From positions 6,167,375 to 6,231,374 of the forward strand of contig CAIIXF020000005.1 of NCBI GenBank assembly GCA_903813345.2: DNA of 64,000 nt, in the 5' to 3' direction. The stretch is from Owenia fusiformis (Eukaryota; Annelida; Polychaeta; Sabellida; Oweniidae). Both the position numbers and the translations under genes were made by a program. Shown in pieces: positions 4,517 to 60,768 of this stretch (the first letter of the stretch is position 1; each line of letters begins with the position of its first letter). Below the pieces are notes generated by a model, which worked only from the letters and a program-made list of their open reading frames with translations, made no database searches and was not told where the DNA came from.

Positions 4517-4993
4517 GTAAGTACAGGATTGCAACTTGAAATAGAAAACACTGTTAAGTTTTGTTCATTTTAATCATATTTCAAAATTAAACTTGACGCG
4601 AAGCTTTGATATCCTGCTTAGGAACTTAACCCCTATTTTTACTACTGAAAATGGATTTTAGCAAAACACTCCCATATGAATTAACTTGGATGCAATTGAC
4701 TTTTTCCTGCATATCTACATGTAGGATAACGTCTATTGTATCCCCATTATAAGTCAATGGCACCCTTGCTTAAGTCCTCATTTTCTCAGAACTCAAGTTG
4801 ACCAAGTCTCAACAAGTAGATTCATGTTGGATAGTATTGCTAGAATCCATTTTCAATATCAAGAATAGAGGTTCTAAACAGGACATTGGGTTTGCTTTTT
4901 ACAACTTTTAGTAAGCTCTAAATATGCTCGCTCGCTAAGTGCCTCATTACAAATACCAACGGACTGTATCCATATTTTTTGTTGTTTTTACAG

Positions 4994-5761
4994 GACCAAG
5001 GCAGAGCAGTTTATTGTCCAATTCACACGTATAAAAAACGAACAATACAGTTAATTAATAGTTATCATTATAAAGGTTGCAATCTATTTGAAGAGCCATG
5101 TGGATGTACTCTTGTTAACCCCAAAGAGTTGGACAAAATAACGCTTGCTTCACTTCCAAGAGTGAATACATGGACATCAAAGCATGGACATCGAGACTGA
5201 TTCACAACCAAAAGAGGACAGTTTCTTATCCTTTTTGAGAGAGGACATAAAACGACACTTGCCACTGACTGACTAAGGGAGCTCGACGGATCATCATCCG
5301 CTGTTGATTCACTGTGTGATTGTCACCAAACATCCTTAATTTAGTTCGATTAAGATGTAATGGTATTCAACGATAAAAGCAGATTGAAGAAACACCATCA
5401 CTCAAAAACGATTCATTGACACTTTGAATTCCTGGAGAACTTCTACTCGACAAGAGAATGAAATCTCATATCATCACTTGTTACGTATTGTCATAGACCT
5501 AGAGTAGGCCTACTAATGACAAACTAGACTTCCAATAGTCCATGTTATTACAATATCTGAAGGTGTGGGGAAAATAGATTAATAATCTAGAAAATCAATT
5601 GTTCAGAAACACAGAAATCCACTATCTTATTTCTTGTGTAAGCATCTTAAGCCGAAAGCGCCGTAAATGGGGAATTATCTGAACACTCCCAATAATGATT
5701 AACAATACTGCGCAAAAAGACCGTGACACGATCTTCACCGAAGGTAGCTATTACTGGAGAT
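4994..5761 (+). other. Candidate 5' leader exon upstream of the 5762 gene
   Basis: A polypyrimidine tract (TTTTTTGTTGTTTTTACAG) ends at 4993, giving a good acceptor. After it, one frame stays open to 5200 (about 68 codons) before a stop, and no further intron is evident before the ATG at 5762. The simplest reading is a leader exon continuous with the coding exon. Alternatively 4994-5200 is the last coding exon of a different transcript. Confidence 0.3.
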
Positions 5762-8249: not shown

Positions 8250-8638
8250 GGACGATTCTCGGTTTGGAGAACAGTCTCCTGGGCTAATGATTTTTTTCAT
8301 GAAAAATATAGAAATATTACCCAAATTAAACTATAAATATTCAAAAGAGGACATTTAAATCTACAAGATGTAAAAAATAAAAAATTGGCCTGAAGCAGGG
8401 ATAACGCTCAATTAGACCGATTCAATAAAATACAAGTCTCGATTTGGGGAAAGAAGTTCATCAGTGTACTGCGCTAATATTTTTTTGCGAAAAATCCAGA
8501 AATATTACCCAAATTAAATTATGATTATTCAAAAGAAGACATTCAAATCTATATTATGTAAAAAAATCAAATTTGTCCGAAGCAGGGATAATGCTCATTT
8601 AGATTGATGAACTTCGTTCTCCAAACCGAGAATCGTCC
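8250..8638. mobile_element. Inverted-repeat element with an internal direct duplication
   Basis: Twenty-three-base terminal inverted repeats (GGACGATTCTCGGTTTGGAG... at 8250-8272 and its complement at 8616-8638) bracket about 390 bp. Inside, a segment of about 140 bp beginning GCTAAT is present twice, near 8283-8425 and 8473-8607, in direct orientation with roughly 80-85 percent identity by eye. No protein is encoded. It is a non-autonomous DNA element; the superfamily is not assigned. Confidence 0.7.
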
Positions 8639-8814
8639 TTTTAACAAGTTATCACAATTATTTTCATGCTTGCTGATATGTATTGTGTATATTAAAATAA
8701 TGGACCAGAAGTTTACACTTATTGTTGGACCATTTTCAATAAGTATTAATCCACAAACGAATTGTGCATTTTGAGGCAGTTACGTAGCCTAACTGTTATG
8801 AAATCTAATATACT

Positions 8815-9172
8815 CATTCGCACATTTGATAATGTACCATTTTCTATTGATAGGAAAATTTCAGAATTTTTGGGGTGATGTAGGTATTTTCTCACATACA
8901 ACTATTTGGTAAGTACAGCGCAATAGTTTGTTCACCGTACCACACATGACCTGCATATTCTATCTAAATTTTTGGGGATACCTATATAAGGCAGGGTAAT
9001 TACCGTCTTCGATGTGTAAATATCCAGTTATAAAGCACCAAAATAGCTTAAATCAAGCTCATCACAAACTATTGAGATGTGCTCACCAATAGTTGTATAT
9101 GAGAAAAACGTATACCTATCAGTAGAGAATGACACGTTATTAAAAGTGTGAATGTTTTTTTGGACCACCCTG
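8815..9172. mobile_element. Truncated mariner-type MITE
   Basis: The right end reads TGGACCACCCTGTA, the terminus also seen at 42575 and 48307. An inverted repeat of about 110 bp pairs 8815-8930 with 9040-9160 (both include a TCTC-ATA-CAACTAT core). The left terminal motif is missing, so the element is incomplete. No coding capacity. Confidence 0.55.
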
Positions 9173-11053: not shown

Positions 11054-11289
11054 ATGATAGGTGTCTATCTATGATAGGTGGCGCTGTATGAAAATATTTT
11101 TGTGTATGGTGCTCCGAGTATTTGGTGATTTCCTTGAGGATTTACATCTAAACACATTTCTACTGGAATCTGATTTGACTATAAAGGTTCAATGTAGCGA
11201 CCTGTCAACTGCAAACCAGTAGGCGTTTGCCTAAATCATGGATATTGATGGATAAATCCACGCTGTGACCGTTAGGAATAATTTTCAAT

Positions 11290-12792
11290 ATGGCGTCTGA
11301 TTTTGAAATTGACCCGTGCATGGATAACCTGCTTAGAACTGTTGAATGCACACCGAGGTATGAAATTGTTGAACAGTTATCTATGGACTATGATGAGGAT
11401 ATGCTATATGAGGTTAGATCATATCAATTTTCTATGGTGGAAAAATCTATATCTACTTTGTGCGAGGATCGTTTCGGACCCCAAACAGCTAGGGGTGAGG
11501 ACCAAATGGTGGATCTCAAGATCAAGCGTAGGAAAGGAGATAATAAACTTGTAAGTTATGCCAACGACATATATGACATGTATGTATATCTAATGGGGCT
11601 AACGGAACACTTTCCGCGTAGTATTTTGGCCCCCACTAGCGTATTACCGGAGGAAATTACATGTATAAAGGACCTACGCTCTACCCTTAGGGAACGAACC
11701 GTATGTAAGGATATGGCAGATAACTCGAATGCTGCAGAATATCAAGCACGTCTGAGTATTTTAACCAGCTCAAACGATGAGCTGAAGTTGGAAATTCAGA
11801 ACATGAAACAGGCTCACAAAGGTCAACTTGACATTCTAACCAAGCGAGTCAAGGAACTTGAATGTAAAATAGGTCAACTGCAAGGGTGTACACTGCCTCT
11901 CACTTATAATGAGACTAAGAAGCCAATCAGTGTGGGGTCCATCGATACACAACGATCAGCTGATTGTAATGTTACTGTGACTGAGCAGCCGAGTGATGAC
12001 GCGTGTGTTGATAAACAAAGATCAGCTGTTGATGTTGACGCTTTGATCACCAAATCGAGCAATCGTACACATGAGGTACGGCCCCAAGTTCCATCCATGG
12101 GACGGGGCAGGGGGAGGGGACGCAGCGTATCGGCACCTGATGGTAGAATGCCTGGGATTACCCGCCATGCTCCCTTTCCGACTAAATCAACCCCGAGACC
12201 TGCACCCGCACCTCAGCCCGACCAACAGTCAACTACACAGCGAAGAATTGAGGTGGTTTTAGGTTCGAAACCGAGTAGCGACGATAATGCCGTGTCATGG
12301 TCACAGGTCGTTCGCAGGAAGAAATCTCAACCTACCGTTCGTCGACATATCCCTAATAAAGCAGCTGTTGATAAACCAGTGCGATCTTTGAGAGGGGTTA
12401 AACGTGAAAAGGGTGTAACATTGTATGTTGAAAATATCGAGAAAGAGGAAGGCGAAAGTGACATTAACATTAAGCAGCAAGTAATATTACAGGCTAAACT
12501 AAACAATATACGTGTAATGCAATGTTATGTGATTCATAACAGGGTGTCTGAATATAACGTGGGCTGTAAAATAACAGTTCCAGTATCATCGGTACAACTT
12601 GCGTTGTTGGAGAGCAGTTGGCCAGCACCAATAAAGTGCCGAGAATGGGTGTCTCGTCGGTCCTATAATAATAGTCCGATGGACGACGCCGATCTTGATT
12701 ACAGTGATATCTATCATTCAACCAAGGAATATGACGGTTATTCAAATACAGAGTGTCGCGATTACGGCTATACAAACGATAATGTTGACTGA
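11290..12792 (+). CDS. Retrotransposon ORF1 protein (500 aa)
   Basis: ORF1 of the nested non-LTR element, presumably the RNA-binding and chaperone protein of its ribonucleoprotein. Visible parts are an acidic N-terminal region; a coiled-coil-like stretch around residues 155-200 (EYQARLSILTSSNDELKLEI onward); an Arg/Gly motif near 275-283 (GRGRGRGRS) likely to bind RNA; a Pro-rich linker; and a C-terminal region with the pattern CKITVPVSSVQLALLESSWP, resembling the small C-terminal domain of many CR1/Jockey-type ORF1 proteins. There is no CCHC zinc knuckle. The C-terminus is rich in Tyr and Asp. The stop codon overlaps the ORF2 start as TGATG, suggesting coupled termination and reinitiation. 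Confidence 0.85.
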   Translation: MASDFEIDPCMDNLLRTVECTPRYEIVEQLSMDYDEDMLYEVRSYQFSMVEKSISTLCEDRFGPQTARGEDQMVDLKIKRRKGDNKLVSYANDIYDMYVYLMGLTEHFPRSILAPTSVLPEEITCIKDLRSTLRERTVCKDMADNSNAAEYQARLSILTSSNDELKLEIQNMKQAHKGQLDILTKRVKELECKIGQLQGCTLPLTYNETKKPISVGSIDTQRSADCNVTVTEQPSDDACVDKQRSAVDVDALITKSSNRTHEVRPQVPSMGRGRGRGRSVSAPDGRMPGITRHAPFPTKSTPRPAPAPQPDQQSTTQRRIEVVLGSKPSSDDNAVSWSQVVRRKKSQPTVRRHIPNKAAVDKPVRSLRGVKREKGVTLYVENIEKEEGESDINIKQQVILQAKLNNIRVMQCYVIHNRVSEYNVGCKITVPVSSVQLALLESSWPAPIKCREWVSRRSYNNSPMDDADLDYSDIYHSTKEYDGYSNTECRDYGYTNDNVD

Positions 12793-15700
12793 TGGCTGGC
12801 CTGACAATTATGTTATATTTTGTGTATATAGTTCAGTTTCTGCTTTTGACACACACGCCATCAATGAACTGCACTGGTAACAATAAAAATGATGGGCCAG
12901 TAAATCTTGATTTTTCTCTTAATATTGCATCTTGGAATGCGAACGGTTTGGGCATCTCCAAACCTTATCTGTCACATCTTATGGAATTTAATGACATTGT
13001 TTTAATACAAGAACATTGGTTGCATAGTGGTTCAAAGCATGTTCTAGATGACATAGATATGCATTTTAATTGTACAGTTTTTGAAAGTAGTAGAGATTTG
13101 TCTGTTTTTGATAATTACCATAACATAGGCCATGGTGGCATTGCCATACTTGTTAAAAATGATGTACAACAGTTGGTTTCGAAAGTTAACTTGAAATGCA
13201 ATAATACAGATAGGTTATGTGCCATTGATGTTAATTGTAATGAACGACACTTATATGTTGTATGTGTATACTTGCCACACCAAAATTGTAAAAAGGTTAG
13301 TTTTACAGAGGTTTTGGTTGAACTTGAGATGTGCATAGCTGTTTTGATGAAAAAGGGTGATATCATAATCTTTGGTGATACGAATGCATGTATTGATTCC
13401 TTATATGGAGATAGGGGTATAGGTTGTCCAACACGTAATGGGAGATTGTTTATGGATTTTAGTAATAGAAATGGGCTAATCCCAGTTGATATGTTGAGTA
13501 AAATTTGGAAGGGACCTTCATATACATTTAGTAGAGATTACACCGGCAGTTCGTATATTGATCATTGTGTAATATCTGCCGCATTGTTAGAGAACATCAA
13601 GTCTGGAGTAACGCATAATGAATGTATCATTAATACCTCTGATCACCTGTCTATGTCAGTTAATATTGTATTTGATGGACAGGCACCATGCTCCCTAAAC
13701 AACATATTAAATGACACATTAAATGAATCATACATCTCATGGGATCAGCTCTCAGATAGCGATATTGATTTGTTGTATACATCAAAAGTTCAGGATCTTT
13801 TAGAACATGTCCAAACCGATTTTGAGGATAATTGTAAAGATCAGGGATATAATGTGCATATTATAGATAAAACATTAGAGAATATTACAGACATTTTGAA
13901 ATCGGTCGCTGAGGGTAACATGCCAAAGCGCAAATATAATAAGCGTCTGAAACCATACTGGAATTCCACAGTCAAAGATTTTATGAAAGAAAAGAATAGG
14001 CTGTGGAATCGTTGGAAATGCAGCGGAATGCAGCGGGGCGATGACGAGTTTTGGCTTTTATATAAAGAATCCAAACGGAATTACAGGCGGGCTTTAAGAA
14101 TGGCCGAAATGCAATATAATATTACCTGTCAAAAGAAAATTGACGAGTCTCAGGATGTGGATTCGAGATACTATTGGTATTTAGCTAACAGACATAAACG
14201 GGATTGTAAACAATCGATACATATTAGAGCTGATGATGGGACTGTGCTACAAGATCCTGGTGATATTAGAAATGAATGGGCTAATTATTTTGAGAAACTG
14301 TTTACCCCAAAATGTAATGTTAATTTTGATTCCGACTTTAAAGATTATATTGATTCTCGAGTAAATATTATGAAAAAAGAATACCAAAACAACAGTGATG
14401 GCTCTTTTGATGTTAATTTTGACAATGAAGAACTCTTGAAAGCGATTACGTCATTGAATAACAGACGTGCTAGTGGTATGGACGGTGTATCAGCTGAGCA
14501 TCTTAAATATGGTGGCATGGCACTTATTAATCTTTTAACTGCGATTTTTAATGCTATTTTTAAGTATGAACATGTACCAAGTAGTTTAAAAGTAGGAGTT
14601 ATGATAACACTGTATAAAGGTGGTAATAAGGATGTTCTTGATAAAGATAACCACCGGGGAATAACTCTAATGAGTACATATAGTAAGATATTAGATAGGT
14701 TGATTTTAAACCGTAGCAAATGTTGTGATCATTTTAATAGGTCAAAACTTCAATATGCAGCACAGTCAGGGTCATCTTGTATTGACACCTCCCTTGTCCT
14801 TAGGGAAACAGTTGCCCATCAACTTGAAAATGGCTCAGATGCCTATGTTTTGGCAATTGACGTGAAAAAGGCATTTGATACGGTTTTTACAAATGGCTTG
14901 ATGTTTTTGTTATATAATCAGGGTATCAACGGAAAATTGTGGAAAATTATCTATGAGACATATGTAGGATATCGTTGCTGTGTTAAGGTCAATGGTATAT
15001 TAAGTAATTTATTTTATGTTCAACAAGGGGTCCACCAAGGTGGGGTCCTTTCTATGGAATTGTATGTAAGATTCATGAACCCTTTGTTATTAGAATTAGA
15101 GAGCTCTGGACATGGATGTCAGGTACGGGGGATAAACTGTGTTGCTCCATCGTACGCAGATGACACCATACTGGTATCAATGTTCAGACATAGCATGCAA
15201 GAAATGCTGCACATTCTTTATAATTATGCAAATAGATGGAGATTTGAGATCCATCCAGGGAAATGTGCAGCAGTTCACTTTACTAGAAGTAGTTTTAAAG
15301 ATGTACAACCTTTTGATTTCGGATCCGCTAAGATTCCGATAAACAAAGACCTTGTTCATCTTGGGTTACCAGTTACACAGCGGGATATAGCCTATCACTT
15401 AGACAATGTAACATCTAGGGCAAGGCGCAATTTCTATGCCACTGTAGATTGTGTCACCCCCGAAAAGTGTAGCGTAAATCCCTTACCTGCTTCTAATTTA
15501 TATTGGACTGTTTCAATTCCTACCATGCTATATGGTGTCGAGGTATTAAATTATAATGTATCAAATATTAAAACTTTAGAAAAGGTGCATGCCAATTCGG
15601 CCAAGTCAATTCAATCTCTTCCAAAGAACACAACTGATTGTGCCGCGATTGCTCAACTTGGTTGGACAGGTATAAGCGAAACTATTGCAATCAGGAAGCT

Positions 15701-16385
15701 CATGTATTTCTGGCACATCTTTAATACTAGTGTTGGTATTTGTAAGAAGTTAAGTATCTTTAGATGGTATGCTATACTATATAGCTTCTTCGTAGATAAA
15801 TGTGCTGTAACAGTTTCATCACCAATTAGGGAAATTATACAACTTGGAATGCAATATGATCTTATAGAAAGAATGGATAGCTATATTTCTAATAACACAT
15901 TTCCATCCAAGTGGCACTGGAAAAAGATAGTGAAAAGTTCTGTTCTTACAAAGTCTCTGCAAAGATGGCGTTTTCAATGCATGACATATAATAAAATCAA
16001 ACATTATAGAGAAGTAGTAACAACTCGTACTCCAATAGTCTGGTACCAGCTATGTAAATACAAACCTGAAATGATATTCAAATGTAAACTTATGGTGAGA
16101 CTACTGGTTGGTGAAGGTGTTGGTCGTCATACCGAGCCAAATGTGAATAGGGTATGCCCAATGTGTAATTCGCATGAATCATTGTTACATTTTATTAAGT
16201 TTTGTGATGTGCTGGAAACAACTAGAAATCCTATACGACCTTACTTAGGCGGAAGTGACCTAAATGTAATTGAAAATATTTTTGCCCCAAATGAATATGA
16301 TGATTGTATTATAATAGCCAGGACAGTGTATCATATGTACCAACTGAGAACTAGATTTCTCAATTCTCTAAACGTCCTGCACTAA
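12792..16385 (+). CDS. Retrotransposon ORF2: endonuclease and reverse transcriptase (1197 aa)
   Basis: It makes the DNA nick and copies the element RNA by target-primed reverse transcription. The N-terminal apurinic-type endonuclease domain (about residues 43-295) shows SWNANG, IQEHW (Glu74), a GDTNA motif, YIDH and the terminal SDHLSMSV. The reverse transcriptase (about 590-830) shows NHRGITL, AIDVKKAFD (catalytic Asp690), GVHQGGVLS and YADD (788-791, catalytic Asp790 and Asp791). Near the C-terminus is a C-x2-C-x7-H-x4-C zinc motif (CPMCNSHESLLHFIKFC). No RNase H domain is recognised. All catalytic residues checked are present and there is no frameshift. Residues 3-22 form an unusual hydrophobic stretch ahead of the endonuclease. 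The start overlaps the ORF1 stop. Confidence 0.93.
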   Translation: MAGLTIMLYFVYIVQFLLLTHTPSMNCTGNNKNDGPVNLDFSLNIASWNANGLGISKPYLSHLMEFNDIVLIQEHWLHSGSKHVLDDIDMHFNCTVFESSRDLSVFDNYHNIGHGGIAILVKNDVQQLVSKVNLKCNNTDRLCAIDVNCNERHLYVVCVYLPHQNCKKVSFTEVLVELEMCIAVLMKKGDIIIFGDTNACIDSLYGDRGIGCPTRNGRLFMDFSNRNGLIPVDMLSKIWKGPSYTFSRDYTGSSYIDHCVISAALLENIKSGVTHNECIINTSDHLSMSVNIVFDGQAPCSLNNILNDTLNESYISWDQLSDSDIDLLYTSKVQDLLEHVQTDFEDNCKDQGYNVHIIDKTLENITDILKSVAEGNMPKRKYNKRLKPYWNSTVKDFMKEKNRLWNRWKCSGMQRGDDEFWLLYKESKRNYRRALRMAEMQYNITCQKKIDESQDVDSRYYWYLANRHKRDCKQSIHIRADDGTVLQDPGDIRNEWANYFEKLFTPKCNVNFDSDFKDYIDSRVNIMKKEYQNNSDGSFDVNFDNEELLKAITSLNNRRASGMDGVSAEHLKYGGMALINLLTAIFNAIFKYEHVPSSLKVGVMITLYKGGNKDVLDKDNHRGITLMSTYSKILDRLILNRSKCCDHFNRSKLQYAAQSGSSCIDTSLVLRETVAHQLENGSDAYVLAIDVKKAFDTVFTNGLMFLLYNQGINGKLWKIIYETYVGYRCCVKVNGILSNLFYVQQGVHQGGVLSMELYVRFMNPLLLELESSGHGCQVRGINCVAPSYADDTILVSMFRHSMQEMLHILYNYANRWRFEIHPGKCAAVHFTRSSFKDVQPFDFGSAKIPINKDLVHLGLPVTQRDIAYHLDNVTSRARRNFYATVDCVTPEKCSVNPLPASNLYWTVSIPTMLYGVEVLNYNVSNIKTLEKVHANSAKSIQSLPKNTTDCAAIAQLGWTGISETIAIRKLMYFWHIFNTSVGICKKLSIFRWYAILYSFFVDKCAVTVSSPIREIIQLGMQYDLIERMDSYISNNTFPSKWHWKKIVKSSVLTKSLQRWRFQCMTYNKIKHYREVVTTRTPIVWYQLCKYKPEMIFKCKLMVRLLVGEGVGRHTEPNVNRVCPMCNSHESLLHFIKFCDVLETTRNPIRPYLGGSDLNVIENIFAPNEYDDCIIIARTVYHMYQLRTRFLNSLNVLH

Positions 16386-44200: not shown

Positions 44201-47200
44201 GAAAATAAAATTTGAAAAAATTGAAAAAAAGAAAAAATCTGAAAAAATTTTGTAAAAATTGAAAAAAGAAAAAAATAGAAAAAATAAAATTTGAAAAATG
44301 TGAAAAAATTGAAAAAAAAAATTGAAAACAATTTTAAAGAAAATTAGAAAACTCTACTTAGTATAGGATAAAGAAGTTATGTACGGTCGGTTTGAATATT
44401 GGGTTCATCCCTCGTGAGATATACACATCTACCTTCGGTCCCTACGGTCCCTCAGGTAGATATGCATATCTCCCCCTGGATAAATCCCATATCCAAAACC
44501 TCCCAGTACATAACCCTTATGTTTACATTTCAAGTGTAAACACTAGAGAAAGATATATCTTTGGCTTTCCTTTTTCATTTTACAATCTTATTTGCTCATT
44601 GATGATTCCATTTTAATAATTTTAATTGCATATTTATTTTTGAAGCAATTGAAATGTTTTTATCAACTATGATTGAAATAAAATACAAAAATTATTTGTC
44701 ATTAATACCATGGGCTTTCAACTAGTTGAAAGCCCATGGTAATACCAGGAAAACCATTAATATTAAATTTCAGTATTTATTTCTGTCATTAACTTATTTT
44801 TACTTGTGCATGTTGTGTTTAATGAATTTTTTAGTCCTTAAATGCAAAATGATAATAAAAAAAAGTTAAGACAATTTGACCTAAATGTTGTACACTCCCT
44901 GAGCAAGTAACATAAAACAAAATTGAATTGATTAATTAACTAATCAACTTTGATCTAAACCATCCCTTATCATATCAAAGTAAACACAATTAATGTTGTA
45001 GTTGACCACATTATTAATTCGGTACAGTATTTGGGTCACAATACCTTACTATTCTGTGCACTCACATTTAAATTGAAGAACCTACAAACCTGAAATAAAA
45101 TACAAATACAACGTTTCTTAACACTGAGACAAATGTGTTTCACAAGGAGAGTATAATCAATAACATCTACAATAGGTAGACTCATAGCATATGGAATGTT
45201 TTGCCTGTTGCCTAGCAACAGTGTTTAATCAGTGAAGTCCTTCAATAGCATTTCCAATACAGTTACAAATCAAGGAGGATTGGCTCCCAGAATGCAACAC
45301 CGATATTCTGCAAAACAATCACCTAGCGATAGCTTTGTTGGAGAGTATCGGGTCATTCTCCATGCAGTCGTACAAATTATACAGACACGAATAGCAAATG
45401 ACGCATGCGTGGAGATTAAAGAATATCGAGTTGGAACCCTGGCTTCCAATCCTCCTTGGTTACAAATAGTGTAACTTGCATTAAGGTTGTTTACGATAAA
45501 AACCTTTTTAGATAGATTGTGCTATTTTTTTCAAAAGGTCATATGCCCTTGGCCTTCTCTAAGATTTCTGAATAGAATTGTGTGTTACTTTGGCATGTAG
45601 AGTATTTCATAATGGCCATGTCCAGTCTTAAATTGACATGTCATGGTGTCATGTTAATATCATATCCATGTCATAAATGATGAAACTTATTCAATTCTGG
45701 ACATACAGCCAAATATTTTGATTGTTGATTGTTGGGAATATTACCTATGAACTATTATGATTTGGAGTCACTCAATTTGGTTTCTGAGTTTGTAGCTAGA
45801 CTTTCCACCCATGGTACCGAACAAGAGTGCTTTTTTAATGCTAATCAAGTAATTAAAATAAGTCAACATTGTTTCAACTAGGAACCACGAGAACTCAAAA
45901 ACTAAACTTCTTATTTTATAGTATTGACATTTTCATATTTGATACATGAACAATACACATTAATGCTCATTATTTAATAGGGTGTAATTGTCAGAGATCC
46001 CCAGAATTCTTTTTTTCTAATTAAGGATCCCCTACACTGCCTTAACTTCATTGTCCAGAGATTTGTCATAAATAAATATTAATGATGGAACTCTACATTC
46101 CAATCACTTCACAGCGATCTCCCCAGGAATTTTTTCTCAAGTTGGTGCAAAATTCTCATTTTCACAATTCAGACCAAAATTAGTCAAAATATGCCAATTT
46201 TTCATGATTTTTCACATTTTCAAGTGGGTGCAAATGGATTTTCAGGTGGGTGCAATGCTGTTTTCAAAATCCCAGGTGGGTGCTGCGCCCACTTGCTTTA
46301 ATGGTGGGGAGATCACTGCATCATATTATGATAGAAGACATTGCTTTCGGGAAAAATTGTTTTAGAGTAAAACAAGCCAATATTTGGTCCAGGAATTGAT
46401 TTCCAGAGGGAATTGAATGACAAAAAATCCCTCTAACAGTATATTCTATTGAATGATCCAATAAGAGTATCAAACACATGTACTATTTGATGTTCTAAGG
46501 GAAATGGCATATTGACATCTGTAACTTTTTAACACCCACTGAGACACCTGTATTCATTTTGCCATTAGGCAAATAAAGGATTTAAAATTAAACTTAGGGT
46601 TAGTTAAGTATACACATTCATTTATAAAGGTATAGCATTTTTTAATTTTTTAGAAAAAATGTTAAATTACATTTTTGGGAAAGTGACAAAGAGAGGTCAC
46701 TCCAAAATGAAAAAAAATCGGCTTGACATATAAAAAAAAAGACTTAATGGATCTACTATCCAATCATTGAAGTTTGTTTTGATAATGTCTCACCTTAGCT
46801 TGGTATATTATTGATTACTAAATAACAAAGTAATGCCAAAGGGTATTTGAATTGTTGTAGATATTGGTGTATTGATGGGAGTTCCACTTAGGGATGAGAT
46901 AGCTACTACAGGGGGTGTGGATGCAGCATTAGACAGCATTGCGGCTCTGGATGGATGTAAGTAAAAGACAGGTGTAGCTACATATATTGGCTACAGGTGT
47001 AACATTTGCTATAAAGTAAAATCTCAGAAAAAATTTATTTTACTGTGAAAGGTCTATGAAATCAAATGATTCAACTGTTATACAATCAAGTTTGCTGCTA
47101 ATTGTATTGTATTGTATCCATTATTACCGCAGATATAATGTGAGTTACAATTTTTCATTTACCTAAAATTAACATATTATGCATCCTTGCTGCAAGGGTA

Positions 47201-53200: not shown

Positions 53201-56200
53201 AATCTCCTCTGCACTTCTTTATCTAGATTTACAGAAGTGTCATTACAGCACCCTTGTTTCTGCAAGTGGGCTGCTTTGCACATCAGGGGTAGTAGAAATC
53301 AAAATGGAAAGTTATCTACAAAACTACTCATTCACTTTCAGCTAAGTAAAAATTCTACACAAATTGGTTTGGAGGACTTTGCTGTGTCATTGGAAACCTT
53401 GAGAGATGCTACCACTCCATCACCAAACAGTGCAGGAGTAATAGTGAGTGACAGTACCATATTTACTCTATTCACTCTGAAATTTCATGTAACCACTTTA
53501 ATACTCTGGGGCCTACACTCCCAAACCTACACCCCCAAAATGCAATCTGTTTTTCGACGCGCTTTGGTGTCATAAGGTTTCGGTGCCGAAACGGTGCCGG
53601 AACAGCGCCGAATTTTTTTACGATGATAAAACGGCGCCGAATTATATTGGCTGTGTAGTTCTAATGCTCTTAACAGAACAAATGAACAGTTTTGATAATA
53701 AGGTCTGATGACCCCCAAATGCAATGAGAGTTTCAAAATGAAATAAAATCTGCAGGTGCCTAGCAGGTGTCTGTGACTTCAATTCTGATGTGATGAGTAT
53801 TAGATACCAATACTTTAACACAAAAATATTGTTATAATTTAGTTTCACCTTTCAATACAAGTAAAGGTGGGGGGGGGGAGATAAACAACAAGGATTTGAT
53901 AATGGTACTGTTGCCCCCTCCCCTTTGGTCATATTCATACATTGTATTGTGTCATTTTGGTGAAAATGTTTATACACATTTATATCAGGTTTGTTTTCTT
54001 TATTTCAGAGTGATTTCACAACACATGCATCTGATATAAGAGCCATTGAAACCACTGAGCAAGCTGATGTAGATACTGCCAAGGTATTTATTAATACATA
54101 TTTAATTAGCATGGTCAGTAAAAAGGAAGTGTAGGTGTAGATGCTGTAGTATAGGTTTCATGGAATGTCGAACTGGATTTTTTTTTATTAGTTAATAGTA
54201 TATTGTAGTGTTATAACTAATTATTCTAAATTGTTAAATGAATGGTAGATAATCATATCTGATCATATGAAAGCTGTTGATAATCAACCAACAGATTGTC
54301 TTTAAGATATTTTTTTGATGTTTTAGGCTCAGCTTATAACAGACCTGAACAATTTCCAGGCAGCTATAGCATCAGTGCCGGTGAGCAACTCTTATTGTGT
54401 TTGTGTCTTGATTGTACATCTCCATTCATAATGTATTATCTGTTATGAACTCATTTCTATGTATTAAATGAACCATTGAATACTCAATTCAACTTATAGA
54501 TTAGATTTTTGATAGAAGTTACATGTATAGAAACTGAATTGTTCTGAATGATGACGCCAATGGTTTGCAATTTACCAATATCTATATAATAAACCCCCAA
54601 CAATAGGAGCGTTATTTGTATTCAATTTTATAGGTATTTTGATTAACTCAACATCAAAGCTTCTGCTTGTGATGTTTAATGAAACAAAATCCAGTTAACT
54701 CCTCTTTATAGCATTTATGTAAAATGAGCTCATTAAGGTGACAAACAATAGCATATATAGGAAGCATATACAGTGATCTCCCCAGGATTTTTTGGTACAA
54801 AATTTTCATTTTCACAATTCACACTGAAAATTGTCAAAATATGCCCATTTTTCACGATTTTTGTCATTTTCAAGTGGGTGCAAATGGATTTTCAGGTGGG
54901 TGCAAGCCTGTTTTTAAAATCTCAGGTGGGTGCTGCGCCTACTTGCTTTAATGCTGGGGAGATCCACTGATATAAGTAAAATAGAAAATAAATTAAAATG
55001 CAAAATTCCATTGTACCTTTTTGCCTTTCCAGGCACTTTCCAGGCCTCTGTCAGAAGACCAGCCTATGAATGATTTAAATATGTTTTTGTTTGAAATGAT
55101 TGATATCTATTTTTAGGCCCAGATTAACACCACTATAGATACAGCCAAAGCCATGGAGTCTTATGTCCAGAATAATGCAAGTGCTACCATACAAAAAGTG
55201 AGTACCAGGTCTATGAATGGTCATAAATCATTGGGCAGTCTTAAAGGATTTGTTCGAAATTAGATGCTAGCTAGATCAAATGATCACTCTAAAACAATTT
55301 GCATTTTTATTTTGTGGGCTTCTACCACATCCTAAAATTGCGTAATTATTTCACGTAATTCCCTGGAAGTGTACTGCATCCAGCAAGGAAGGTAGTCTCC
55401 CATGAATCACATTTGTACATGTAATTTCATTGTACTTTCAGCATGCAAGGCTATTTGGCGATCGCATCCTTGGCACTGTGGACAGTTTTATAGCTTTTGT
55501 GCTGAATGCTGTAAGTAATCATAAATCTGCATGAACAAGTTTTTACTATAATTACAAATGTAAACGTGGCCAATTTACTACATTGAGCAACATTAGTCAT
55601 CAAAACAAATAGATGGCGCTGGCTCTCTTCACCTAGGTCCAGATTTGCAAATCTCATTTATAAAAACAATTATTCTTTTAAATTTTGTGTTGTTAAAAAA
55701 ATATATACAAGTACATCTTTCATTTGTCTGTTGGAATGGTCTCATGTAATAAATTACCAATTTCAGGTAAATGAGGATATTGGGAAGTGTACTCCAATAT
55801 GGAACCTGTATAACTCCATATTTGGTATTGCTCTCTGTGGATATCTTGTGGATGCTATGGTAAGTTAGAACTTTGGAGTCACTATCTCATTCTTCTGTTT
55901 AAATGTTAATGTCATCATGAACTTCTCAATATTTCATCATTATTAAATGATTTAAATACAAAAGTGTGATAAAATCAATTTTTATTACACTTTCAAGAAT
56001 TTAAAGTGCTATTTTGTAATCACTTTGTTCAAGATACAAGAACATGAATATTAAACATATTGAAACAAATAACTCACCTGAATGGCAGTATGCATGTACA
56101 TGTATGTTAATTTGAAGAGAAAAACTTCCAATTATCAATTACAGCAAACACTGTACAATGAACTTAAAATGCAAAACATTTCAATGCTATTGGGAAGCTC

Positions 56201-59200
56201 TAAAATGATTGTTCACATATAGACATACTTTCATATTTAGACCAAAATTCTTATGGTAGTATGTAGAAGGAAGGAACTGAAATCTATTTCTATGTTAAGG
56301 CCAAAGGGAGACAAATACACATGTTTTACTGGAATTGTTGCATGGTGGCAATTAAACATGCACATCAATTATTCTTTTATTTTTTAGAATGGCTTTTGGT
56401 TTGGACTTGGCTGGTGTGTCTTCTTCTTTATTCCGTCCATCGTATTTTCTGTCCTGTTACAGAAATATTTCCGCAACATGAAGTCTGCTGAAGGTTTCCC
56501 TGTAGAGTATGTACACATTTTAATTAATGTATATTGGAAACTGTCATCGCATGCTATCACAAATAAATATATTTGGATTCGGATACAAAAATATATTTGA
56601 TTCTCTGAATCGATACAATTGAGCTTAGCTTCATGATAGACTAGCTTTGAGTAGAATGAAATTTTTTTTACCTGGAGCTTTTGGTGGATTTTTGGTTGCA
56701 TATACTGAGGCAAGGTTTACAATAGTTCAAAATTTATCCATCATGTCGCTTCTTAATTTCAAAAAGAATGTATCTGCAACTGCATTCTATATGCACTGCA
56801 ATTTATTACAAAGCTTTTTAGTCTGCTATATACTAATAATGAGATTAATGAAGCCAAATATATGAGAGTTTTTTCTAAAATATGGATTGAAGAACAGTGA
56901 CTGGATCACACAGCCTGCTTTGTGTACTGAACGAACAAAGTACATGAGAGGCTCCAGCAGCAGTGTGGTGCAGTCAGAGTTATGCATATAACCCTGTTCT
57001 GAGGTCTATATAGGCCTCTATAATTATAACATGAGGCCAATGATGGAAATTAACAAAAGAGATGAACATTTCATGATTGATTGGAAATCAGGTTGATTAC
57101 CCAGAAATCAACTAATGTTACATCAAAATCAAATGACATCATTACAGGGTGTCCATACTCCATAGATTTCACCTCACTAAGTCTATATAAACCATTCCAA
57201 TGTAATGTTTGTACAAATCATGTTATGATTAAGGTCGATAGAAGGTTTATTGCTTGATCAGGCTATATAATGTACGAGTTTATGTATATTTTATTAGAAA
57301 AAATTCATTAGATATTTTAGTAAACCTGTTTTTCATGGTAGATTAGTTCATGTTCACTACTCTTGTGATTAACCCTTTTCAGCTTATTCATGTTACATAT
57401 ACATTAGACCTATGAAGGTTAATTGCTGGATATTTGAAACATTGTCATTTTTACATACATATTGCTTGCTGTGTTTCAAATTTTATCAATCGTATTATGT
57501 TTATCCTTGTAGCCCTGAGACAAAAGAAGCTGATGTCATGCTAAAGAGGGATTCATATGTTGTGCCCCCTCAACCCATTTTCACCCCAGATGCCCCTCAA
57601 CCCATTTTCACCCCAGATGCCCCTCAACCCATGTTAACCCATGACCAATCAGACAACCAATCACAAAGGAGTGGGAGTGGTCTATTAAAAGGTTCCACCA
57701 ATAAGGTTCATCCTGTTGACTTTGATCCCACCCTTCCTACTGCCCATACAGAAAATGAAAAGAGTCCAGCTCATAAGTACCAAACACCTGTCAAACAAAA
57801 TCAAGTTGAACCTGTTGACTTTGATCCATACAAAGGTGATCCAGCCCCAGATAGCCAAGAGTTACAGTTGCAATATCCTCAGTACATTGGCACTATTGGA
57901 GATGAAGTGACTCCCCTCCCAGGAACTGCTATTGTTGACAAAGGTCAGGTCACAACTGAACAAAAGCTGGATGTTGGTATGGAGTCAGATAAGGTAGATG
58001 AGGATAATAAGCCGGATACAACAGCAGATGCAAAGCAAAATGATCTGGGTGAACCAGAAGGGTTGAATGATGCTAAAGATGATACTTCTACTTTACCACT
58101 TGAAGATCAGTTTATGGCTAAAACCTTTGTGCATGCAGATGATACCAATCAAGGAAATCTAGATGACACTATAAAAGAAGAAAATGTTATAGAAAATAAA
58201 GAGCCAAAAAACCCTGCTGTTGAAGGGGGTGAGGCTACTAAGATTGGAGGGGCTAATGAAGTTGATGATGAGATAAATGGTGAAAGCAATGATACTAAAG
58301 ATGCTCATGTAGGTGATGGTGTTAAAGATGCAGATTCCAAAGAGACCAATGGCACAGAGTCCAATGGGGATGAACCAAACATCAGAGATAGTGAAATCCC
58401 CAAGACATCAGAAGAACCAATGAATTCTAGTCAATCAAGCCTTAAGGAAGAAAACAGGGAAAAGTCCTTCACACAGGATGAACCTGAAAAAGAGTCAAAC
58501 CAATTGAATAATCCAGAGAAAGATGGCAACCAATCCAGGCCAAATGAAGAACAAAATCCTGAAATAGATACAAAAGTTGAGACCCCCAAGTCTGAGGTCC
58601 CATCCCCTAGTACCCCTGTCCCATCTCACCCCACCCCCAAAGATGATCCTAAATAGCAACCTGAGTACATGGACTAATGTAGCAAGATATTGGATAGTAA
58701 GTTACCTGGTGCTATGATTCAGTGTTCATGTATGCTATGTCTGCTCACATACGTCCTTTAAACAATTGCTAACCAGTACAACGTACCTTTATACATGTAT
58801 GTTATATTACCCCCGAGTTGTTCATCTAATAGAATTGAAATTGTTCGTCCATGTATGTCCTGTTATATTTGTCCTTTTGATATTATGTGTAGTTTGGCTC
58901 GTCTTATGTTTTTAATTCCAACTAGGTTTTACACTCTACAAGTTGTAATGCAATAATGATACTTGTAGGTTATGCTCTAAAACTAGGTTTGATTGATCTT
59001 ATACTTTCCATGTCTAACCATATTGAGTTTTTAGATTAACACTTTTGAATTTCAAATAGAGACTTATTGCACATTATTCTTTAATTTTCCAGATTTTATC
59101 ATGACATTACATTTTGTAGATGGGACTGCTGCTTATAAATGTATGCTTCTAAATCTCGTATTATATCACGATTATATAATGTAGAAATGATGTTGTTACA

Positions 59201-59765
59201 TACCATAGTATGCACAATTTTGAATTCCAATGTACAAAAACTATGAATGATTAACATTAAATTAATATTAGACTGTATTTATATGAAATGACATTTGAAG
59301 TAAATATATAGAATAAATTGTAATCGATGAATAAAGATTAATGATTTACATGTTTTATTATAACTTGACCTAATTGTTGTTTTTTCTTTTCTGTTTGCAG
59401 TAACAATTATGGTACAAAGTAAGTAAATGATATATTTTCACAACACATATTAATATTTTTGTGCTTATATATTATTTGTAGTTTAAATAATTAAAAGAAT
59501 AATGCTTGAATTGCAGCCAGTGATTAATAGATGTAAAAGTTAGAATGTAGGAATTTAGAATCATTGAAATTCATAGTCGAGCGAAGTCTTACAACATTGT
59601 TTCTGAGTAAATGCATTTTACTTCATTTTAAATAAAATGATTATGATACAATAAATGTTTGCCTTCAAAACTGGACTTGTATTTTAGTGTAATCTTGTTA
59701 TTTTACCTTCCAGGGAGGGGCCTCCATTCTCCAACAAGATCGCCCATAATGATACCCCAGTGTAA
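35000..59765 (+). CDS. Prominin (CD133 family), five-pass membrane protein with alternative C-termini
   Basis: Prominins are cholesterol-binding glycoproteins of plasma-membrane protrusions. Twenty-two common exons join in consistent phase (residues 1-844). They encode a signal peptide (residues 1 to about 22, [14 protein letters not shown]); an N-terminal extracellular part; TM1 (about 109-133); the hallmark Cys-rich loop ([15 protein letters not shown]); TM2 (about 163-186); a first large extracellular loop rich in NxS/T; TM3 (about 442-468); the conserved [13 protein letters not shown]4 (about 493-516); a second large loop; and TM5 (about 806-832). Two ends are possible. The 18-nt exon at 59401 plus the last exon at 59714 gives 867 aa, against 865 for human PROM1. 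Exon 57513-58656 instead gives 1225 aa with an acidic tail. Which PROM paralogue this matches cannot be decided, so no symbol is given. Confidence 0.94.
35409..35903. mobile_element. 483-bp element with CAGGCCTGTCAACT termini
   Basis: The element 35415-35897 starts CAGGCCTGTCAACT and ends AGTTGACAGCCCTG, flanked by direct repeats CAGCCG (35409-35414 and 35898-35903). The interior has repeated TGTCACGCAAAT motifs and a series of AAAGGTGTTCAAA-like units. The termini resemble those of the 1.9-kb element at 60769. Confidence 0.7.
36180..36700. repeat. GTTCCACTT-rich repeats
   Basis: Motifs AAGTGTTCCACTT and its variants occur twice near 36180-36245 and three times near 36648-36700, with more near 51488-51540 (complement). 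Probably parts of one decayed inverted-repeat element. Confidence 0.45.
39185..39345. mobile_element. MITE with TACAGTAAAACCT ends
   Basis: Terminal inverted repeats TACAGTAAAACCTG and CAGGTTTTACTGTA bound 161 bp; the TA may be the target duplication. The interior has three GGTGTTCACTA units. No coding frame. Confidence 0.75.
40154..40209 (+). CDS. Prominin exon 2
   Basis: 56 nt: [19 protein letters not shown]. Acceptor ATATTTCAG, donor GTAAGT; phase 1 in, 0 out. Confidence 0.88.
40210..40513. other. Prominin intron 2
   Basis: 304 bp; nothing recognised. Confidence 0.6.
40514..40722 (+). CDS. Prominin exon 3 (TM1, Cys-rich loop, TM2)
   Basis: 209 nt. TM1 is [20 protein letters not shown]; the cytoplasmic loop has ten Cys and begins [18 protein letters not shown]2 starts [15 protein letters not shown]. 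The strongest prominin signature in the gene. Confidence 0.96.
40962..41357. mobile_element. 378-bp element with 9-bp target duplication, in prominin intron 3
   Basis: The element 40971-41348 runs TACCCTTTGCATTCG to GCACGCAGGGTA, flanked by exact ATCTATAGG repeats (40962-40970 and 41349-41357). Its left 50 bp match the complement of the 73-bp element at 3533. The interior is GC-richer than its surroundings and non-coding. Mutator-like affiliation is inferred from duplication length. Confidence 0.82.
41433..41553 (+). CDS. Prominin exon 4
   Basis: 121 nt: end of TM2 and start of extracellular loop 1 ([19 protein letters not shown]). Acceptor TATTTTCAG, donor GTAAGT. Confidence 0.94.
41892..42074. 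repeat. 51-bp minisatellite in prominin intron 4
   Basis: Units start CTCCATTGATTTATTGAAG at 41892, 41943, 41994 (shortened to 27 bp) and 42021. The full units are nearly identical, implying recent expansion. It ends about 50 bp before the exon 5 acceptor. Confidence 0.85.
42124..42190 (+). CDS. Prominin exon 5
   Basis: 67 nt: [20 protein letters not shown]. Phase 0 in, 1 out. Confidence 0.92.
42352..42575. mobile_element. Mariner-type MITE, TA target
   Basis: The left end CAGAGTGGCCCAAAACATCC pairs with the right end GGATATTTTTGCCCACCCTG; TA lies on both sides. 224 bp, non-coding. Confidence 0.75.
44067..44369. mobile_element. Inverted-repeat element with A-rich tract
   Basis: 22-bp ends (ATCCAATGCCAAGTAGAGTT.. 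and the complement of ..ACTCTACTTAGTATAGGAT) match at 18 positions. Bases 44211-44351 are a GAAAAA/TTGAAAAA low-complexity run, which on the minus strand gives a false Phe-rich ORF. Confidence 0.55.
44706..44741. repeat. 36-bp perfect palindrome without spacer
   Basis: TACCATGGGCTTTCAACT is followed directly by its exact complement. No flanking duplication is evident. Confidence 0.95.
45260..45465. mobile_element. Small inverted-repeat element
   Basis: TACAAATCAAGGAGGATTGG (45264-45283) pairs with CCAATCCTCCTTGGTTAC (45446-45463). Non-coding, superfamily unassigned. Confidence 0.6.
46112..46318 (+). mobile_element. GATCTCCCCA element, copy 1
   Basis: Ends CAGCGATCTCCCCA and TGGGGAGATCACTG; the interior has repeated GTGGGTGCAA motifs. 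About 85 percent identical by eye to 54771-54969 and in the same orientation. Confidence 0.75.
46861..46956 (+). CDS. Prominin exon 6
   Basis: 96 nt: [20 protein letters not shown] onward. Acceptor TTGTTGTAG, donor GTAAGT. Confidence 0.92.
47217..48307 (+). mobile_element. Degenerate mariner/Tc1 element, 1091 bp
   Basis: The ends CAGGGTGGGCCAAAAAATTT and AAATTTTTTGGCCCACCCTG are perfect complements within long inverted repeats (over 200 bp, to about 47430 and 48100); TA flanks both sides. The interior keeps a decayed transposase. The flanks themselves form a palindrome (CAAGGGTATTTTTACAAG and CTTGTAAAATACCCTTG), so the element appears to sit in the centre of a palindromic TA target. Confidence 0.85.
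47590..47935 (+). pseudogene. Mariner transposase remnant
   Basis: The frame at 47660-47829 reads [20 protein letters not shown], resembling the C-terminal catalytic motif of mariner DDE transposases (third Asp in PD-x-NP-x-DY). It stops at 47827-47829 and the N-terminal catalytic part is not recognisable. Non-functional. Confidence 0.65.
48623..48822 (+). CDS. Prominin exon 7
   Basis: 200 nt of extracellular loop 1, with a helical stretch and the Cys pair in [13 protein letters not shown], corresponding to the loop-1 cysteines of vertebrate prominins. Confidence 0.94.
48823..49449. other. Prominin intron 7
   Basis: 627 bp; nothing recognised. Confidence 0.6.
49450..49527 (+). CDS. Prominin exon 8
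   Basis: 78 nt: [20 protein letters not shown] onward, phase 0 both sides. Confidence 0.9.
49820..49883 (+). CDS. Prominin exon 9
   Basis: 64 nt: [20 protein letters not shown]. Matches the position of the IPDRVQ segment in human PROM1. Confidence 0.9.
50204..50366 (+). CDS. Prominin exon 10
   Basis: 163 nt, end of loop 1, finishing YDQY before TM3. Phase 1 in, 2 out. Confidence 0.94.
50556..50740. mobile_element. CAGGCCCGTAGCC repeat upstream of exon 11
   Basis: Begins CAGGCCCGTAGCCATGGGGG and ends CCTGGCTTCAGAGAC, a degraded inverted match of the start. The interior is CCCCCC-rich. Its end is 26 bp from the exon 11 start, so it overlaps the branch-point region. Confidence 0.55.
50767..50919 (+). 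CDS. Prominin exon 11 (TM3)
   Basis: 153 nt: [20 protein letters not shown] (TM3), then the conserved cytoplasmic loop [11 protein letters not shown]. Its acceptor lies 26 bp after a repeat element. Confidence 0.96.
51325..51457 (+). CDS. Prominin exon 12 (TM4)
   Basis: 133 nt: [20 protein letters not shown] (TM4), then [11 protein letters not shown], matching the ANVEKLICEP motif of human PROM1. Confidence 0.96.
51458..51995. other. Prominin intron 12
   Basis: 538 bp. Contains a GTTCCACTT-type fragment near 51488 and a foldback at 51808-51931 (AGTGTACTTCACCTCCCCAA paired with its complement). Confidence 0.55.
51996..52105 (+). CDS. Prominin exon 13
   Basis: 110 nt, start of extracellular loop 2 ([20 protein letters not shown]). 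Donor GTGAGT. Confidence 0.92.
52405..52489 (+). CDS. Prominin exon 14
   Basis: 85 nt with [15 protein letters not shown], matching SDCKKNRGTYGTLHL of PROM1. Confidence 0.95.
52711..52848 (+). CDS. Prominin exon 15
   Basis: 138 nt, 46 codons, helical loop 2 ([20 protein letters not shown]). Phase 0 both sides. Confidence 0.93.
52849..53341. other. Prominin intron 15
   Basis: 493 bp; nothing recognised. Confidence 0.5.
53342..53443 (+). CDS. Prominin exon 16
   Basis: 102 nt, 34 codons, with [17 protein letters not shown]. Acceptor TTCACTTTCAG, donor GTGAGT. Confidence 0.9.
53444..54008. other. Prominin intron 16
   Basis: 565 bp, with an unusually GC-rich patch at 53578-53642 that repeats GGTGCCG/GCGCCGAA. 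Otherwise unremarkable. Confidence 0.5.
54009..54083 (+). CDS. Prominin exon 17
   Basis: 75 nt: [20 protein letters not shown] onward. Confidence 0.88.
54327..54380 (+). CDS. Prominin exon 18
   Basis: 54 nt: [18 protein letters not shown]. Phase 0 both sides, so skippable without frame change. Confidence 0.87.
54766..54974 (+). mobile_element. GATCTCCCCA element, copy 2, with 5-bp duplication
   Basis: The element 54771-54969 (CAGTGATCTCCCCA to TGGGGAGATCCACTG) is flanked by ATATA on both sides. Same family and orientation as 46112-46318, in another intron of the same gene. Confidence 0.75.
55117..55197 (+). CDS. Prominin exon 19
   Basis: 81 nt: [20 protein letters not shown] onward; NxS/T sites correspond to the glycosylated end of loop 2. 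Confidence 0.9.
55442..55510 (+). CDS. Prominin exon 20
   Basis: 69 nt: [20 protein letters not shown] onward. Phase 0 both sides. Confidence 0.9.
55767..55859 (+). CDS. Prominin exon 21
   Basis: 93 nt: [20 protein letters not shown] then [10 protein letters not shown], matching the EKVASCKP...LCSYIIDP region of PROM1 with both cysteines kept. Confidence 0.95.
55860..56387. other. Prominin intron 21
   Basis: 528 bp; nothing recognised. Confidence 0.5.
56388..56506 (+). CDS. Prominin exon 22 (TM5, last common exon)
   Basis: 119 nt: [20 protein letters not shown] (TM5), then [15 protein letters not shown]. Ends in phase 2 (GA before GTATGT), which fits both the 57513 exon (C, giving Asp) and the 59401 microexon (T, also Asp). 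Confidence 0.95.
56507..57512. other. Prominin intron before exon 23a
   Basis: 1.0 kb with no exon or repeat recognised. Confidence 0.5.
57513..58656 (+). CDS. Prominin alternative terminal exon 23a: long acidic tail
   Basis: Acceptor TTATCCTTGTAG; the frame continues for 381 residues to TAG at 58654-58656. Near the start, three copies of a 9-residue unit ([27 protein letters not shown]) are encoded by 27-bp tandem repeats at about 57561-57640. They are followed by two PVDFDP motifs, then a Glu/Asp/Asn/Lys-rich disordered region ending in a Pro-rich segment ([19 protein letters not shown]). Two AATAAA signals follow at 59312 and 59330, making this a self-contained 3' terminal exon. Vertebrate prominin tails are only about 50 residues, so the extension is unusual. 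Its long open frame in the right phase supports it as coding. Confidence 0.85.
58657..59400. other. 3' untranslated region of the long-tail form
   Basis: Extends from the stop to the AATAAA signals. A possible donor GTAAGT at 58698 could splice on to the microexon, but only after the stop codon. Confidence 0.5.
59312..59335 (+). promoter_or_regulatory. Twin AATAAA polyadenylation signals of exon 23a
   Basis: AATAAA at 59312-59317 and 59330-59335, about 65-85 bp before the microexon acceptor at 59400. Cleavage here would remove the downstream exons. Confidence 0.6.
59401..59418 (+). CDS. Prominin 18-nt microexon 23b
   Basis: A strong acceptor (TTTTTTCTTTTCTGTTTGCAG) and a GTAAGT donor enclose TAACAATTATGGTACAAA. 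Joined to GA of exon 22 it reads DNNYGTK; joined after the stop of exon 23a it would be untranslated. NNYG resembles NNGY in the human PROM1 tail. Confidence 0.75.
59714..59765 (+). CDS. Prominin last exon of the short-tail form
   Basis: Acceptor TTACCTTCCAG; encodes [16 protein letters not shown] then TAA at 59763-59765. The C-terminal TPV fits a class I PDZ ligand (S/T-x-hydrophobic). With this end the protein is 867 aa, the normal length for the family. Confidence 0.8.
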
Positions 59766-60768
59766 CTCCTAAGAAAAGCAATACCAGATGCCAAAGCTTA
59801 GCAATATCAGATGCCATAGCTTAGCAATATCAGATGCCATAGCTTGCTACAGGGACACATTCTTGTGAAATAACTATGTGGAAATACAGCTAGTTGTTTG
59901 AACCTTAAGGTGGGCCAATTGGGATGACTATTGGACTGCCATGCTGGCAATTACATATGTAAAGCTCCAATTTACTCATTCTGTTAGGCCTACCTTAGTA
60001 GAGCAAGATGCAGTAATATGAACTTGAACAATGATATTATTATTATACAAAGTATTTTTATATTTTGATGGAGTTTTGCATCAATTTTAATCCCTATTCT
60101 CTGTTTATGACTATTTTAATTGTAAGATGGGGGATGGATACAGATATTAGATGTAAGACTATATGCTTATACTCGTATATATGCTTATGCTACTTATTAG
60201 GGAGATGTTTATTATATTTATTAGGAGTATATATCTTGTTATTCAATCACAGGGTATTACATGTGTATTGAAAAACACATTCAATATGGAAATACCCTTT
60301 CTTTAGTACATATATGAATATCATTTATTTTCTGAACCTGACCTTTTAGTACTCTCATCAGAAAGGTGAATGATATCAGCTTAGATAAGATCTGTGAGGC
60401 TCTGTGATATTATTAATCCAATTTAGGAATATGTGTTTGCTTATCTAGTATAATATGCCAAGGAATTTATTTGTAAGAAAAATAAGTGCTTATATTATAT
60501 ATTGTATATTATTTACTTGAAATTGTGACTTAGAAGTATACACTATGTAATTCATAATTTGACCAATTCTCACTATAAAGATAATCTTACTTCAAGACCC
60601 TAGAGCCCCCACCTTATCTACTTAGTTGGGGGGGGGGGGGAGTTGAAGCAAGGCTACTATAAGGAATACAGACAGTTGATACCCATTTTGATTTTTAACC
60701 TCCGTCCACATTTAGTTGTATTTCCGTCCAGTTCAGATGATTTGACCCTTTAGTTTCATCCCACAATG
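59766..60768. other. 3' untranslated region of the short-tail form and flank
   Basis: Begins with about three copies of a 24-bp unit (AGCAATATCAGATGCCATAGC) at 59790-59852. No strong AATAAA was placed. A poly-G tract lies near 60630. Confidence 0.5.

Follow-up and report, generated by a model that had tools for sequence, protein, structure and literature searches.

A prominin gene of Owenia fusiformis with two candidate terminal routes, to a long acidic tail or a short PDZ-type tail

How does the prominin gene in this stretch of annelid DNA end its protein, and can it do so in more than one way? Prominins are proteins of membrane protrusions. The window (the whole stretch analysed here, 64,000 nucleotides) corresponds to C5:6167375-6231374 of the 498-Mb genome of Owenia fusiformis, and the gene that it holds, called P1 below, has two in-frame ways to continue behind its exon 22. 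We consider it likely that the P1 pre-mRNA takes one of two terminal routes, one leading to a long acidic tail and the other to a short tail with a PDZ-type end. The features on which this reading is based are collected in Table 1.

Table 1. Features of the P1 gene, in window positions
Feature	Start	End	Strand	Basis
Prominin core: 22 exons, signal-peptide-like start, five hydrophobic segments, Cys-rich stretch after TM1	35000	56506	+	exon chain, Pfam PF05478, hydropathy
Exon 22: TM5 and start of the cytoplasmic tail; phase-2 end GA|; weak donor AGA|GTATGT	56388	56506	+	sequence, splice-site score, protein similarity
Long terminal exon, coding part: 381-residue acidic tail, TAG stop	57513	58656	+	in-phase ORF, chance tests, change point, gene finder
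27-nt tandem repeat inside the long exon, 2.8 copies, in frame (APQPIFTPD)	57566	57640	+	sequence
Long-form 3' UTR: ATTAAA 59256, AATAAA 59312 and 59330; putative cleavage near 59350	58657	59350	+	sequence
U-rich tract and microexon acceptor (score 7.0), at a place where a poly(A) downstream element could lie	59374	59400	+	sequence; the role as a shared element is putative
18-nt symmetric microexon with a strong donor (AAA|GTAAGT); codes for the rest of D, for NNYGT, and for part of a split Lys codon	59401	59418	+	splice scores, translation
Last exon, coding part: ends DTPV-stop (PDZ-type end)	59714	59765	+	splice scores, translation, G+C

P1 encodes a full-length prominin. A Pfam scan of the 873-residue model with the short end matched PF05478 with E = 2.1e-163 over positions 16-799 of the 799 in the profile. 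According to the hydropathy analysis, residues 5-27 form a signal-peptide-like start and five hydrophobic segments lie at residues 101-147, 158-188, 436-470, 484-519 and 813-839, with the two large extracellular loops among the five transmembrane segments that characterize a prominin. The model protein also has a Cys-rich stretch after TM1, and a stretch of this kind at the end of TM1 is described as a prominin feature in the accessible text of PMC5049760. A PDB search with the sequence of the 873-residue model gave two matches at E <= 1 (0.16 and 0.84), both to unrelated proteins, and no structural relative was found there. The exon chain comes from a gene finder that gave 25 exons, three of which were weakly supported and were dropped by hand (44456-44535, 46173-46275, and 54875-54925). 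One internal exon starts at either 46861 or 46873; we used 46873, which does not stand behind an AG, and the AG-based start at 46861 adds four residues. Because of this uncertain start, the lengths of our models, 873 aa with the short end and 1231 aa with the long end, are good to a few residues only. An earlier note on this DNA had given 867 and 1225 aa; the absolute values thus differ from ours, while the difference of 358 residues between the two forms (381 vs 23) is exact. Its view that 867 aa is the norm of the family is about right, compared with the 804-865 aa given for rodents and primates in the accessible part of PMC10967083.

A genome-wide search with the Pfam prominin profile returned 16 matches at E <= 0.001 (12 above cut-off), and these were grouped into five genes: P1 in the window, its tandem neighbour P2 on C5, P3 and P4 on C9, and P5 further along C5. 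By profile similarity, P1 is one copy in a predicted family of at least five prominin genes. Elsewhere in the window, a 1198-codon open frame at 12789-16382 carries a reverse transcriptase domain (Pfam RVT_1, E = 7.7e-25) and belongs to a retroelement. Two further open frames of 505 and 507 codons, at 5699-7213 and 11269-12789, have no Pfam match, and the second ends where the reverse transcriptase frame starts.

Both terminal routes leave from exon 22, whose protein end ...GFPV is followed by the split codon GA|. Protein similarity revealed a counterpart of this exon in each of the four other prominin loci, the P5 match being weak (E 0.004). P1, P2, P4, and P5 share the phase-2 end of the TM5 exon. 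The only donor-like site of P3 that scores above 2.5 is in phase 2 as well; as the reading frame terminates directly at this site (EDP-stop), the TM5 exon may be the last one of P3. As the earlier note proposed, exon 22 can be joined in frame to either route at coordinates that check in the sequence, and an Asp codon is rebuilt at both junctions, as GAC on joining to 57513 and as GAT on joining to 59401. Rebuilding Asp is not special to P1, as the tandem paralog P2 does the same (GA|T). The exon-22 donor scored 2.7, a value equalled or exceeded by 87% of the training donors. This comparison is partly circular, since the splice-site matrix was trained on 52 exons from our own earlier predictions with exon 22 among them; the P1 long exon, microexon, and last exon were outside the training set.

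The short route consists of small exons, the 18-nt microexon and a 52-nt coding end with the stop codon, and the long route of one 381-codon exon. Splice sites of the short route are stronger than those of the long one, with acceptor scores of 7.0 (59401) and 7.4 (59714) and a score of 6.0 for the microexon donor. The last exon closes with GTG TAA. The resulting tail counts 23 residues with the microexon and 17 if it is skipped, and DTPV is kept either way. We take this end (TPV-COOH) to be a class-I-like PDZ motif by the usual class rule, and a short tail with DTPV would be able to bind a class I PDZ adaptor. One acidic tail of 381 residues and one PDZ-type end, both announced in the earlier note, can be read directly from the DNA. 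If the microexon donor is left unused, the frame stops at once (...DNNYGTK), which gives a possible third tail without the PDZ end; AATAAA signals at 59631 and 59650 follow this stop (window 59401-59660). The two tails had been presented as mutually exclusive; the two in-frame terminal routes stand, but the choice between them is not strictly two-way, because the microexon can be skipped and retention yields a third tail.

Behind the short-form stop, neither AATAAA nor ATTAAA is present up to 62000. Variant poly(A) hexamers in this region include AAGAAA at 59771, AATACA at 59883, and TATAAA at 60574. Three copies of a 23-nt tandem repeat (AGCAATATCAGATGCCATAGCTT) lie just behind the same stop, at window 59777-59845. 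Another acceptor-like site with a score of 7.2 is found at 59093, in the 3' UTR of the long form, and opens a 15-residue phase-2 tail beginning with EFYHD, which is faintly like the microexon of the paralog P2 (DFYDD). Coding evidence for a terminal exon at this site is slight (codon score 0.7). In the 28-kb stretch, 8 of the 1,488 AGs reach 7.2, which predicts roughly one such AG in 56507-59800, where there are 203.

It could be that the long form alone is made and that the microexon and last exon are relics of an ancestral short-tail end, such as P2 has kept. This is improbable in our view, although the absence of a canonical poly(A) signal after the short-form stop agrees with it, as does the preference of the gene finder for the long exon when its end is left free. 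Both small exons retain the strong splice sites given above and an open frame, and the G+C content of the last exon is 52%, compared to 25% in the intron before it and 34% in the sequence behind it. A relic would be expected to lose such traits.

On the other route, the long exon looks coding. It begins after TTGTAG at 57513 and, from the rebuilt GAC, reads 381 residues to the TAG at 58654-58656. It contains no in-frame stop, compared to a mean of 24 and a minimum of 12 in 300 dinucleotide shuffles, and at the local stop-triplet frequency of 0.066 the chance of 380 open codons is about 5e-12. Stop-to-stop segments of at least 381 codons are rare, with 6 of 23,004 in the window and 13 fetched loci (180 kb), the long exon being one of the six. 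Four of the other five were scanned with Pfam: those at window 12789 and in locus L010 hold a reverse transcriptase domain, and no match was obtained for window 11269 or window 5699. The fifth lies in locus L008. The G+C content of the long exon by codon position is 0.59, 0.38, and 0.31, which is a three-base periodicity. A codon score, for which exons from the five prominin genes served as training set with the long exon excluded, gives 61.7 bits in frame, 3.6 and -285 in the other forward frames, and 36.8 in the best reverse frame.

Because the open frame runs 141 bases upstream of the long exon into the intron, the start of the coding signal could be located. The best change point from intron to coding sequence is 57514, the first full codon behind the predicted acceptor, with 41.3 bits (40.5 and 40.2 for the adjacent codons). 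The model was trained on the last two thirds of the long exon and on the intron before 57373, all of it outside the test stretch. A change point at the acceptor favours a spliced exon rather than a nested gene. The free-end gene finder, run on the unpruned 25-exon chain, picked the path from 56506 to 57513-58656 at all three intron penalties. A looser, earlier run ended otherwise, with exon 22 truncated at 56413, a splice from 58312 inside the long exon, and a gene end at 61155. The acceptor at 57513 is weak, with a score of 2.8 that is reached or exceeded by 88% of the 52 training acceptors and by 4.2% of all AGs in the stretch.

The 381-residue tail has 83 acidic (D+E) and 36 basic (K+R) residues and a computed pI of 4.26. 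No relative of it was found in Pfam, in the PDB (by sequence), or in the genome itself by protein or DNA search, and the DNA of the long exon has one single match in the genome. AlphaFold2, run on the single sequence of the tail, gave a mean pLDDT of 47.4, and DSSP gave no result for this model. A folded domain in the tail was considered and set aside, since this value fits disorder, though a single-sequence model is weak evidence. The long tail is probably disordered and largely unstructured, as judged from the prediction.

These data bear on the converse possibility, that the short form alone is made and the 381-codon frame is a nested gene or an exon of another gene, unjoined to exon 22. 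The weakness of acceptor 57513 would suit such an arrangement, as would an in-frame ATG at the ninth codon past the junction codon and the lack of protein or DNA relatives of the frame elsewhere in the genome. However, the coding signal starts at the acceptor and not at this ATG, for which the change-point score at the codon just after is 32.6 bits vs 41.3. The frame also fits exon 22 exactly and on the same strand, and poly(A) signals stand ahead of the microexon acceptor. We therefore regard this explanation as quite unlikely.

There is very little to recommend a third explanation, in which the long exon is partly a cassette and an internal donor splices to 59401 to give a combined tail. Donor-like sites are present at 58228 (score 4.0, phase 1) and 58308 (3.2, phase 0), and the looser run of the gene finder joined 58312 to 59401. 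Both donor-like sites lose the phase 2 that leads to DTPV, however; the sole phase-2 donor scoring above 0 lies at 57983, with 0.6, and 58312 scores -3.7 with the trained matrix. Moreover, no stop interrupts the frame before the TAG, which is followed by poly(A) signals. That the long exon is a chance open frame or an assembly artefact, for which only the absence of relatives of the tail speaks, is extremely improbable in the face of the open-frame probability, the three-base periodicity, the change point on the acceptor, and the one single genome match.

We retain the reading with two terminal routes; the frames, the phases, the coding character, and the layout of the paralog can be seen in the DNA, and the use of both routes, their regulation, the PDZ binding, and the function are inferred from these features. 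The choice would be a competition of splice sites for the exon-22 donor, aided by cleavage and polyadenylation upstream of 59401. On one route, the weak exon-22 donor would be joined to the weak near acceptor at 57513 and the transcript polyadenylated near 59350, and the product would be a prominin that lacks a PDZ end and carries, on its cytoplasmic side, a largely unstructured acidic tail of 381 residues. On the other route, the long exon would be skipped in favour of the stronger acceptor at 59401 (or of 59714 directly), and the product would have a tail of 17 to 23 residues ending with DTPV, for a class I PDZ adaptor. The AATAAA signals that the earlier note ascribed to the long exon were located at 59312 and 59330. 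Since they lie just ahead of the microexon acceptor, and the U-rich tract stands where a downstream element could be placed, cleavage at the long-form site would eliminate the exons of the short end. The U-rich tract may play a double role, serving the microexon as polypyrimidine tract and the poly(A) site as downstream element.

The slot after TM5 is filled differently in the paralogs. Behind the TM5-exon junction there are 381 or 23 residues in P1, 16 in P2 (4 if its microexon is skipped), 124 in P4, and 47 in P5. The tandem paralog P2 (G000 C5, about 6239602-6256136) is like P1 in its phase-2 donor GA|T, its symmetric microexon, and its short last exon, a layout that speaks for the short end of P1. 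Its splice sites score 8.2 (acceptor) and 2.7 (donor) for the 36-nt microexon and 10.3 for the last-exon acceptor. The microexons of P1 (18 nt) and P2 (36 nt) are both multiples of three, and therefore both can be skipped in frame. Unlike that of P1, the P2 tail ends with YYKY and lacks a PDZ-type end, and a search of the P2 intron for a long exon found none. Right after the P2 TM5 exon, a minisatellite of ten 36-nt units is open for 129 codons (3817-4203 of locus L003, G000 C5:6251375-6261374). We did not accept this repetitive frame as a tail, given its minisatellite-like structure and the lack of any acceptor with a score above 2.5.

P4 (G000 C9) resembles the long route of P1, with a phase-2 donor and one long terminal exon of 124 residues (acceptor 6.6). 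It differs from P1 in a donor score of 1.97, also weak, and in a tail that has no detectable kinship to the 381-residue tail (z 1.0). Pairwise comparison of six prominin tails (15 comparisons, the doubtful second P4 exon included) gave a highest z of 1.0 and revealed no relation. The P4 locus L011 (G000 C9:5244000-5253999) has two phase-2 open terminal stretches, at 4839-5163 (108 residues) and at 8526-8898 (124 residues). The nearer one (14839-15163 of the joined stretch) was not counted, since its acceptor scores -1.7, compared to 6.6 for the other. As a tentative extension, a regulated alternative last exon may switch P1 between a PDZ-anchored form and a form with an acidic disordered tail of about 42 kDa, which could crowd the cytoplasmic side of protrusions or recruit other partners, and the tail slot after TM5 may evolve rapidly in this lineage, as a module that each paralog has filled on its own.

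Tail swapping itself is familiar from vertebrates. In prominin-1 (CD133), types A to J, the accessible text of PMC3047580 and PMC10967083 describes a tail swapped by splicing right after the TM5-proximal exon, at the place that corresponds to the P1 junction, with an Asp junction (Glu in type C), small optional exons, and some PDZ-binding ends, much as predicted for P1. Ten alternative C-termini, some of them predicted, are listed in PMC3047580 (Table 1), and all the tails in this table go on after ...VYD with D, or with E in type C. This D or E would fit the same split GA| codon. The vertebrate tails are nevertheless unlike the long route of P1: they extend over 11 to about 60 residues from RRM and come from small exons, while all 381 codons of the long route sit in one terminal exon, which also brings a 3' UTR of its own. 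The statement of the earlier note that the long tail far exceeds those of vertebrate prominins fits these ten C-termini. According to the accessible part of PMC10967083, some prominin-1 variants end in PDZ-binding classes I to III. Within its accessible text, PMC11776279 discusses syntenin-1 and reports that deletion of the mouse prominin tail leaves the microvillar location intact, the role of particular splice variants being described as open. The canine variants s22/s23 of prominin-1 are like P1 in that exon 27 carries a stop codon, a 3' UTR, and an AAUAAA of its own and terminates the protein prematurely; in contrast to P1, the tail is shortened and no long acidic stretch is added (PMC5049760, accessible text).

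A literature search on prominins (annelid, mollusc, Drosophila, alternative last exon), with most subscription papers outside its reach, found no description of such a long single-exon tail. As far as the accessible sources go, the choice of tails, the Asp junction, and the PDZ ends are already known in prominins. New in P1 are how long the acidic and probably disordered tail is, and the fact that a single terminal exon supplies it. As the corresponding junction seems to be used in P1, the site of tail swapping may predate the vertebrates, which the comparison suggests but does not prove. The function of prominins is poorly understood, and the cytoplasmic tail is among their most variable parts. 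P1, whose product would bear a PDZ hook or else an acidic chain of 381 residues, together with the other tails of its paralogs, would offer a test of whether the tail tunes the shape of protrusions or the release of vesicles.
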